Positions 8,916-10,824 of a stretch of DNA of 64,000 bases are shown piece by piece. The notes beneath the pieces are model-generated. The model was not told the origin of the DNA. It saw only the letters and a program-made list of their open reading frames with translations, and made no database searches. The DNA comes from Alphaproteobacteria bacterium (lineage in GTDB: Bacteria; Pseudomonadota; Alphaproteobacteria; Micavibrionales; Micavibrionaceae): assembly GCA_009995045.1 (NCBI GenBank), contig JAACQG010000005.1, positions 166,360-230,359 of the forward strand, in the 5' to 3' direction. The position numbers were made by a program, and so were the translations under genes. Within the stretch, counting starts at the first letter, position 1. The number at the start of each line of letters is the position of its first letter.

Positions 8916-8996
8916 TTTTTGTGCGATGGCGTTGTTGAATTGCGGCTCGCGTACTACTCGTACGCTTCGCCTTATTCGCCTAGCCACGAACAAAAA
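8916..8996 (+). repeat. Structured repeat, copy 1, between groES and groEL
   Basis: This 81-nt element folds into a long interrupted hairpin. The outer arm TTTTTGTGCGATGGC (8916-8930) pairs with GCCACGAACAAAAA (8983-8996), GAAT pairs with ATTC, and the apex is GCGTAC-TACTC-GTACGC (8949-8965). It shares TGGCGTYGTT and TTYGCCTAGCCA with the copy after groEL (10716-10824), while the stems differ in sequence but remain paired. It could be an mRNA processing or stability element, or a non-coding mobile repeat. It is not a canonical terminator, since no U-tract follows. Confidence 0.75.
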
Positions 8997-9055
8997 TCCG
9001 TTGCCACTATTTATAAATTAGAACTTAAAACTTAAATAATCAGGAGATTATCACT

Positions 9056-10708
9056 ATGTCTGCTAAAGATGTAAAATTGGGCGGAGATGCCCGCGAAGAT
9101 ATGCTTGCCGGGATCAACATCCTTGCGAATGCTGTTAAAGTAACATTGGGGCCAAAGGGTCGTAATGTTGTTATTCAAAAAAGCTTTGGCGCACCGCGCA
9201 CCACAAAAGACGGTGTGACTGTTGCTAAAGAAATCGAACTATCAAATGCACGTCAAAATACTGGTGCTCAGTTGATCAAAGAAGTTGCTTCTAAAGCCAA
9301 TGATCACGCGGGTGACGGTACGACAACGGCGACAGTGCTTGCGCAATGTATCGCTAATGAAGGCGTTAAGGCTGTTTCTGCGGGACGTAACCCGATGGAT
9401 CTTAAGCGCGGGATTGATTTGGCTGTGACTGCGGTTGTTGCTGATCTTAAAAAACGTGCGAAGAACGTTAAAGGCAATGAAGAGATCAAACAAGTTGGTA
9501 CGATCTCTGCTAATGGCGAAGAATCAATCGGCGCACTTTTGGCTGAAGCGATGGATAAAGTCGGTAACGAAGGCGTTATCACTGTTGAAGAAGCAAAATC
9601 TTTGGACAACGAGCTTGAAGTTGTTGAAGGCATGCAATTTGACCGTGGTTACCTTTCACCGTACTTCATCACTGATGCGGAAAAGATGCAGGCGAACCTT
9701 GAGAACCCATATATCCTTCTTTGCGAAGGTAAGCTTTCTAACCTTCAGGCGCTTGTGCCGATTTTGGAAGCTGTGGTGCAAAGCTCACGTCCGCTTCTTA
9801 TCATCGCAGAAGATGTTGAAGGCGAAGCGCTTGCTACACTCGTTGTGAACAAGCTTCGTGGCGGTCTTAAGATTGCTGCTGTTAAGGCGCCTGGTTTTGG
9901 TGATCGTCGTAAGGCGATGCTTGAAGACATTGCGCTTCTTACGGGCGGTGAAGTGATCTCCGAAGATCTTGGTATTAAGCTTGAGAATGTAACGCTTGAT
10001 ATGCTTGGTACAGCGAAGAAAGTTGGCATCACGAAAGACGATACAACAATCGTTGACGGTGCTGGCGACAAGAAAGACATCGAAGCACGTTGCGCACAAA
10101 TCAAAGCACAAGTAGAAGCAACAGATTCAGACTACGACAAAGAGAAATTGCAAGAGCGTCTTGCGAAACTCTCTGGTGGTGTTGCTGTTCTTCGCGTTGG
10201 TGGTGTTACTGAAGTTGAAGTGAAAGAGCGCAAAGACCGCGTTGATGACGCACTTCATGCAACACGCGCAGCGGTTGAAGAAGGTATTATCGCTGGTGGT
10301 GGTACTGCGCTTTTATACGCAACGAAAGCACTTGAAGGCATGGAAGGCGCTAATGATGACCAGACTGTTGGTATCGAAATCATTCGCCGCGCAATCCAAG
10401 CACCGATTCGTCAAATTGCATCCAATGCAGGCGATGAAGGCAGTGTGATTGTTGGTAAATTGCTAGAGCAAAAAGATACTGACTATGGTTGGGATGCGCA
10501 AAAGAGCGAGTTCTGCAACATGGTTAAAGCCGGTATCATCGACCCAGTGAAGGTTGTTCGTACAGCTCTTCAAGATGCAGCGTCTGTTTGTAGCTTGTTG
10601 ATCACGACAGAAGCCATCATCACCGACTCACCGCAAGAAGATAAGTCTTCTGGTGGAGACCATATGGGTGGAATGGGCGGTATGGGCGGAATGCCCGGCA
10701 TGATGTAA
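9056..10708 (+). CDS. groEL: Chaperonin GroEL
   Basis: The 550-residue ATP-driven chaperonin subunit, of full family length. The N-terminus carries the nucleotide-binding GPKGRNV motif, [11 protein letters not shown] lies near residue 86, and the tail is the usual Gly-Gly-Met repeat. A CAGGAG ribosome binding site precedes the ATG. The gene is second in the groESL operon. Its 3' flank carries copy 2 of the structured repeat and, 150 bp past the stop, a hairpin terminator. Codon use appears highly biased, as expected for abundant proteins. Nothing unusual is seen in the protein. Confidence 0.99.
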
Positions 10709-10715
10709 GCCGCTT

Positions 10716-10824
10716 GTAATTTTGCCCGCTGGCGTCGTTAAAGGTGTTTTTTGCGGTTCGCATGTACCAAGCGTACATTTACGATCCTCAAAACATCTTT
10801 GCCTAGCCAGACAAGCAAAATTAC
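10716..10824 (+). repeat. Structured repeat, copy 2, downstream of groEL
   Basis: A 109-nt element beginning 7 bases after the groEL stop. Nested perfect or near-perfect stems are GTAATTTTGC (10716-10725) with GCAAAATTAC (10815-10824), CTGGC (10729) with GCCAG (10806-10810), AAAGGTGTTTT (10740-10750) with AAAACATCTTT (10790-10800), and apex ATGTAC-CAAGC-GTACAT (10762-10778). It shares TGGCGTCGTT and GCCTAGCCA with copy 1. Apex and outer stems differ from copy 1 by paired, compensatory changes, which argues that the fold is what is conserved. Confidence 0.8.

Follow-up and report, generated by a model that had tools for sequence, protein, structure and literature searches.

Hairpins flanking groEL in a Micavibrionaceae genome: probable members of an ERIC-related, replication-oriented repeat family of Alphaproteobacteria

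In an alphaproteobacterial genome of the family Micavibrionaceae (GCA_009995045.1), one long hairpin stands after groES and another after groEL, which raises the question of whether they serve the groESL mRNA or are copies of something that occurs elsewhere too. The window referred to below is the whole stretch of 64,000 nucleotides of that genome that was analysed. A sequence-only reading had placed the hairpins at 8916-8996 and 10716-10824; the positions were right and the extents too short, since outer stems reaching into the stop region of groES and the stop codon of groEL had been missed (Table 1). Both copies do have the GTAC-N5-GTAC apex and the shared words, as claimed. Both are ladder hairpins, of 107 bp (copy 1) and 128 bp (copy 2, with an inner stem longer than the family norm); the left arm of copy 1 overlaps the final codons and the stop codon of groES, and the groEL stop codon is the start of copy 2. 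Folded as RNA, the + strands gave z-scores of -4.5 (copy 1) and -5.0 (copy 2) and the - strands -6.0 and -5.7; for none of the four strands did any of 200 shuffles fold as stably. Single shared words are weak evidence, since TTYGCCTAGCCA with at most two mismatches occurred 8 times in the window against 9.3 expected. Unlike the family norm, the outer arm of copy 1 pairs eight groES coding bases (ATAGTGGC) with the far side of the element (GCCACTAT). Two HTH-type proteins of ~220 aa, alike by eye, are encoded near groEL at 10907-11569 (-) and 13607-14257 (-).

Table 1. Coordinates of the two hairpins and neighbouring features in the window
Feature	Coordinates	Strand	Evidence and remarks
Copy 1 of the hairpin repeat	8903..9009	+	groES-groEL spacer; R1 match of 83.4 bits (training sequence), fold, sequence
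Copy 2 of the hairpin repeat	10706..10833	+	R1 match of 48.0 bits (training sequence), fold
Internal loop of copy 1, 5' side (GCGTTGTTG)	8929..8937	+	Second G-T-T near-invariant in the family (53-copy column conservation)
Internal loop of copy 1, 3' side (TCGCCTAGCCA)	8976..8986	+	C-C-T near-invariant in the family (53-copy column conservation)
groES	8590..8913	+	Mechanical ORF start TTG, MAKFRP... start further in; stop TAG 8911-8913 within copy 1
groEL	9056..10708	+	Stop TAA 10706-10708 at the left edge of copy 2
Terminator-like hairpin with T run	10868..10886	+	Likely groEL terminator, separate from the repeat, downstream of copy 2

A two-word pattern search gave 3 matches in the 1.89-Mb genome (0 for the reversed-pattern control) and 15 matches in 10 of 58 relatives (4 for the reversed-pattern control). 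Fourteen of the 15 pattern sites and window copy 2 were aligned with plain MAFFT; the remaining site, L016 in G047, fits the words, showed no palindrome by eye and was dropped. The covariance model built on these 15 copies, R1, matches both window copies by construction, as both are among its training sequences, and it revealed no third copy in the window at E ≤ 1. The search of the source genome and its relatives with such a model, which the sequence-only reading had suggested, returned 17 matches in the source genome, all at E ≤ 2e-4 and 15 of them away from groESL. Of 115 genomes of the order, 70 had copies at E ≤ 0.01; G002 and G064 were among those with none. The non-autonomous repeat family, named in that reading as the alternative, is thus the correct one. 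Within a genus, copy number ranged from 0 to 28 per genome (33 in G006 under a laxer filter). Across the class, 29 of 385 genomes had matches at E ≤ 1e-4, 25 of these in other orders, and a closer scan of eight of these genomes gave 3 to 46 matches each, the 46 being those of G433, where many units are opposed pairs. The element is intergenic, multi-copy and ~105 bp long, a near-full-length imperfect palindrome with ~34 pairs in several stems. Searched in genome contigs, a strict pattern found five stretches, all in alphaproteobacterial MAGs; it had no match in viral contigs, and one copy (L043) had none in plasmids and phages, on which grounds carriage by viruses, plasmids or phages was dropped. 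A second subfamily (about TAGTCACTTCCTTTT...AATTAAGCGACTA) comprises L031, L033, L035-L038 and relatives in alignment set A3; where a gene pointing left adjoins its left end, the loop by eye contains AAGGAA, like a Shine-Dalgarno sequence, a few bases ahead of the ATG.

From the outside inward, the ladder consists of an outer stem of ~6 bp, a loop (consensus TTCCAT opposite CTGTTTG), a stem ending in TGGC/GCCA, an internal loop with GTYGTT opposite GCCTA, inner stems and an apex on GTA/TAC. The paired stem changes reported from the two window copies are real: in the 15-copy alignment, cells with changes on both sides numbered 101, versus 40.1 ± 5.1 in shuffled and 16-42 in slid versions, the alignment being plain MAFFT and the structure nevertheless drawn from folds of the same sequences. 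The excess recurred among 53 copies (443 both-side changes against 135 ± 11 shuffled) and among 68 copies of three further genomes (655 versus 214 ± 15), both in alignments fitted to the model and hence biased towards it. Covariation in all three sets supports the selection on the fold that had been proposed, or some other force that keeps the arms complementary. The near-invariant loop positions across the family are GTT, opposite CCT; loops overall are no more conserved than stems (mean 0.73 versus 0.79 bits).

Selection on an RNA should favour G.U pairs, and G.T cells were about as rare as A.C cells, so the stem pairing looks to be maintained at the level of DNA and not RNA. G.T and T.G cells numbered 69 in set A2, 60 in A3 and 40 in A4, against 56, 86 and 58 A.C and C.A cells; summed over the three sets, this is 169 versus 200, with G.T making up 3-4% of standard pairs. 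In 19 A3 copy pairs that were 80% or more alike, there were 61 fully compensated changes, 45 one-sided mismatches, 3 G.U and 8 other double changes, and on the contrary side, G.U accounted for 52 of 134 one-sided changes between A2 copies 70-80% alike, against 19 of 204 in A3; since copy pairs have a common history, the changes compared are not independent events. Concerted change in both arms is the pattern that hairpin template switching would give, by analogy with RNA genes, for which PMC8794818 argues that template switching keeps hairpins paired. A known Rfam RNA family was ruled out at the window hairpins and at relative loci, as there was no match at the gathering threshold at the hairpins, none at E ≤ 0.5 in window positions 8880-10880 and none at E ≤ 0.1 at five relative loci.

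ERIC is among the closest known repeats. Like ERIC (IRU, RU-1), the element is an intergenic, multi-copy, near-full-length imperfect palindrome with TA near its termini, and it falls in the same size class (mostly ~105 bp and, in the window, as much as 128 bp, against 127 bp for ERIC). The E. coli ERIC/RU-1 consensus, as printed in PMC2759123, has collinear words in common with it (GCGTYGTTGCTGCGTCGCTC and CTCCTTGCGCCTAGC in the element versus GCGTTGGCTGCGTTCGCTC and CTCACTTGCCGCCTTGC in ERIC). In local alignment against 115 copies, the ERIC consensus reached a mean of 17.8, its reverse complement reaching 12.8 and 150 shuffles 15.0 ± 0.6 (at most 16.6); a single real ERIC copy reached 17.0 against 15.2 ± 0.5, the highest of 150 shuffles, 17.5, lying above it. 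A second covariance model, R2, built from 53 alphaproteobacterial copies with no ERIC included, matched the ERIC copy of E. coli locus L291 over its full length (E 1.9e-4 in 3.1 kb; R1, E 0.16). Run unfiltered on 80 kb, that is, on four (L292, L293, L295 and L296) of five distinct 20-kb E. coli ERIC loci, R2 ranked the four ERIC copies 1 to 4 at E 0.012-0.041, with the next match at E 0.67; these matches lay on the right strand and ran end to end at low scores of 19-22 bits, and they amount to little more than one test because E. coli ERIC copies are near-identical. With default filters, the five E. coli stretches gave no match at E ≤ 10.

These sequence signs, weak but consistent, are good evidence, short of proof, that the element and ERIC are linked by common descent or by very close common design, and the hairpins are best read as a non-autonomous alphaproteobacterial branch of the ERIC family. 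The two differ in their outer ends (TAGAGC/GCTCTA here, TATACTC/GAGTATA in ERIC) and in the apex stem, which is shorter here, and unlike ERIC, the copies here have in common the fold and a few fixed positions, and far less of the stem sequence. The element also occurs class-wide in Alphaproteobacteria, outside the ERIC host range that a 2024 review gives (Enterobacteriaceae and Vibrionaceae; PMC10969869); because host range bears on distribution and not on structure, we file it as a new ERIC branch. ERIC-like elements in Alphaproteobacteria are unreported as far as our literature search went, Hulton 1991, Wilson and Sharp 2006 and most subscription papers lying outside it.

Two repeat classes of Alphaproteobacteria invite comparison. 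The CGTC REPs (Di Nocera et al. 2013, PMC3733652) are, like the element, intergenic palindromes with varied stems and no dedicated transposase known. That paper gives them stems of 8-9 bp, loops of 4-5 nt and CGTC as a terminal tag, unlike the ~34 pairs in several stems of the element, whose consensus carries no terminal tag. A CGTC-type-REP-like sequence (gtcatcccgagcg...) was seen by eye in the right flanks of L041 and L047. CIR, the ~110-bp intergenic repeats of Caulobacter and Brucella with TA termini (PMC2229807), resemble the element in host class, length and termini. They differ in a conserved GANTC, a motif (the CcrM methylation site of Alphaproteobacteria) found here in only 9 of 199 rows of the A2-A5 alignments, in a few copies of two sets, where ~0.4 per copy would be expected at uniform composition; the comparison is with the published description of CIR.

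Several observations bear on mobility. Copies at unrelated sites of one genome are up to 92% identical over 103 bp, and such copies are alike within the element only, the match of L043 to L159, for example, stopping at the element edges. Empty sites were found in the groES-groEL spacer, in L067 versus L140 (before a gene reading by eye as rplQ) and, most cleanly, in L055 versus L191, where ~100 bp lie exactly at the stop codon with the right-hand spacer kept. Tandem head-to-tail copies are present as well. In G433, units of 264-268 bp (loci L251-L270) carry two opposed hairpins between terminal inverted repeats starting with AGAGC and occur in many near-identical copies, up to 98% identical at different places, several of them at contig ends; this composite looks recently active. 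Judged by sequence, the element is mobile now or was so formerly.

The element has defined ends, its outer stem reading about TAGAGC...GCTCTA, as the G433 terminal inverted repeats that start with AGAGC indicate. Over 115 copies, only the six innermost pairs of the outer stem showed more arm pairing than the control, and beyond the element no excess was sustained. The eight paired groES bases of copy 1 had suggested that the outer arms extend outwards into the gene by copying host sequence; this idea was therefore dropped, the pairing excess ending at the element edge and copy 1 being an exception. Such ends bear on a first alternative, in which the element is a MITE of the ERIC, Correia or RUP type that an IS630-like DDE transposase moves in double-stranded form into TA, duplicating the TA, and in which any orientation bias comes from selection or from replication-sensitive target choice. 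The TAGAGC/GCTCTA ends speak for it, as does the TA on both sides that fits part of the copies; ERIC and Correia likewise have TA termini and target duplications according to PMC2759123 and PMC2229807. With palindromic ends, however, blunt insertion after a T yields letters identical to TA/TA, and among 13 copies with intact GAGC and GCTC, TA preceded GAGC in 12 and followed GCTC in only 7.

The left edge of the element abuts gene boundaries. Taking a forward stop as the end of an open stretch of at least 60 codons from 60 nt outside to 80 nt inside the edge, in crude longest-ORF calls by script and not in curated genes, we found one for 89 of 115 copies, and in 58 of these 89 it lay within -9 to +3 nt of the left edge; at the right edge, 11 of 79 reverse stops lay that close. 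Left-side tRNA genes were flush in 9 of 9 cases (-4 to +1, at either tRNA end), and the two right-side tRNA genes were 13 and 24 nt off. Of the left-edge stops, 36 of 61 were TAG, compared with 240 of 942 background stops (p 1e-7), as expected if the AG of the element end completes the T of a host stop. A stop-codon target as the sole account of flushness covers this excess and was rejected, since start codons and tRNA ends are likewise flush with the left edge. ERIC in E. coli starts 1 and 6 nt past the stop codon after ybhI and cusC, and 26-54 nt from the left gene at the other three loci.

The orientation of the copies follows GC skew. In 20-kb stretches of three genomes, the family set agreed with the skew in 61 of 68 copies (p 7e-12) and with coding bias in 36 of 68, the upstream gene being co-directional in 39 and opposite in 29. 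In the other-order set A4, likewise from three genomes, 36 of 40 agreed with the skew (p 2e-7); here 28 of the 40 matched the coding bias as well (p 0.017), and co-directional upstream genes outnumbered the others by 26 to 13. The + strand is thus on the G-rich strand in 97 of 108 copies of both sets together, and where skew and coding direction conflict, orientation tracks skew in 33 of 33 (25 of 25 and 8 of 8). Copies sharing a contig are not independent, so the count by contig is the fairer number: the majority agreed with the skew in 23 of 30 contigs, with 3 ties (p 3e-4), and for A4 by itself in 9 of 11 (p 0.065, not significant). The copies opposed to the skew were 7 of 68 and 4 of 40, both G422 copies included, and one of the four in A4 (L273:12401-12499) is a second-strand match on a palindrome already counted. 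Along contig 1 of G036, the 15 matches flip once from + to -; the local skew around the two window copies, which are both +, is positive (+0.108).

The G-rich strand is generally the leading strand. Given that, the element is oriented with replication, and its + strand is taken as the leading strand, hence as the sequence of the lagging-strand template. Such strict replication orientation is not known to be typical of IS630-like MITEs, and the double-strand alternative, for which the ends speak, is in our view possible though on the unlikely side. In ERIC only five loci were read for orientation, against the many copies here: four of five distinct E. coli loci agree with the local GC skew and fbaA-pgk disagrees, too few to conclude. 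We are fairly confident that the element is by nature a dispersed, ERIC-related DNA repeat oriented with replication.

Which enzyme would move such a repeat was approached through protein domains. Hairpins with near-invariant unpaired bases and a polarity towards the lagging-strand template are also features of integron attC sites. Their core sites are RYYYAAC and GTTRRRY, which, read off the consensus, were not seen at the element ends. The same likeness holds for the IS200/IS605 and REP/RAYT class, which PMC6006769 describes as acting on folded single-stranded DNA of the lagging-strand template with marked unpaired bases. An element of the REP/RAYT type, mobilised as single-stranded DNA by a Y1 (HUH) transposase, would account for the lagging-strand targeting typical of that class (PMC6006769) and for the invariant unpaired bases of the hairpin. 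One odd long copy of the source genome (G000:C23:10669-11326, locus L034), in an insertion absent from G017, moreover adjoins a decayed sequence that weakly resembles Y1 (E 9.9e-4, below the cut-off) and is broken by stops. The Y1 domain, however, occurs in only 35 of 115 genomes and is absent from the copy-rich G003, G006, G017 and G034, and the family consensus contains no GTAG or GTGG foot tetranucleotide; the Y1 transposase was dropped as a partner because its presence does not match copy number, and we regard this reading as improbable. Tyrosine recombinases proved uninformative, PF00589 being found in 114 of 115 genomes, and no mobilising enzyme was found among the domains checked (Y1 and tyrosine recombinases). 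A Y1-domain protein of ~230-250 aa is encoded ~12-17 kb from groEL in G036, G058, G076 and G114, and is perhaps vertically kept and domesticated.

Returning to the replication-oriented, ERIC-related repeat, we propose an enzyme that would bind its folded + strand where this is single-stranded on the lagging-strand template, recognise it by the invariant loop bases (GTT and CCT) and insert it. The arms would stay complementary partly through template switching within the hairpin during replication, and insertion into a stop codon would be tolerated since the element end restores a stop (T + AG). The single-strand step on the lagging-strand template, which we infer only from orientation, is put forward tentatively, as selection after insertion could yield the same bias. 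More tentatively still, ERIC and the alphaproteobacterial elements may form one ancient superfamily that moves as a folded single strand from and into the lagging-strand template and joins precisely at the first base beyond a gene, its arms being kept by template switching and not by RNA function.

What remains is the part the hairpins play at groESL, where the sequence-only reading had proposed mRNA processing, stability or differential expression. groEL was found in 58 of 61 family genomes, and in 30 groESL loci examined, two of them cut by a contig end, a copy followed groES or groEL in only 6 (8 matches), which indicates that groESL does not need the repeat. A cis-acting RNA element of the groES-groEL mRNA would fit the co-orientation of both window copies with groESL, by which they would be transcribed, and ERIC in Yersinia can destabilise upstream mRNA (PMC2229807 and PMC10969869). 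The low share of occupied groESL loci, the 15 of 17 source-genome copies elsewhere, an orientation that ignores gene direction, the little preference for G.U and the lack of an Rfam match make such an element very improbable, and an RNA specific to groESL is ruled out by the occupancy, the gene-independent orientation and the weak G.U preference. The proposed role was thus not supported: the hairpins are probably not regulators of groES and groEL, and the groESL copies are most simply passengers; by analogy with ERIC in Yersinia, an incidental secondary effect on the upstream groESL mRNA is possible. The repeat was also rejected as the groEL terminator, for a terminator-like hairpin sits separately (Table 1); with 3 terminator-like sites found against 2.6 expected in shuffles, that call alone is no proof. 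By eye, the groES-groEL spacers of L089, L090 and L077 contain other hairpin-like sequences. A polar DNA signal useful to the host (in replication or segregation, KOPS- or Chi-like) or a hairpin for lagging-strand priming would suit the replication polarity and the few invariant loop bases and is most unlikely given copy numbers from 0 to 28 within a genus, the sporadic presence at orthologous sites, the absence of copies from relatives such as G002 and the near-identical G433 units.

The case carries a caution, in that textbook covariation in bacterial intergenic hairpins need not imply a functional RNA. The family also offers a large natural set for asking whether template switching during replication maintains hairpin pairing. 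CGTC REPs and CIR were known in Alphaproteobacteria before, as PMC3733652 and PMC2229807 describe; with diverged relatives across the class that carry replication polarity, lagging-strand transposition of single-stranded DNA becomes testable.
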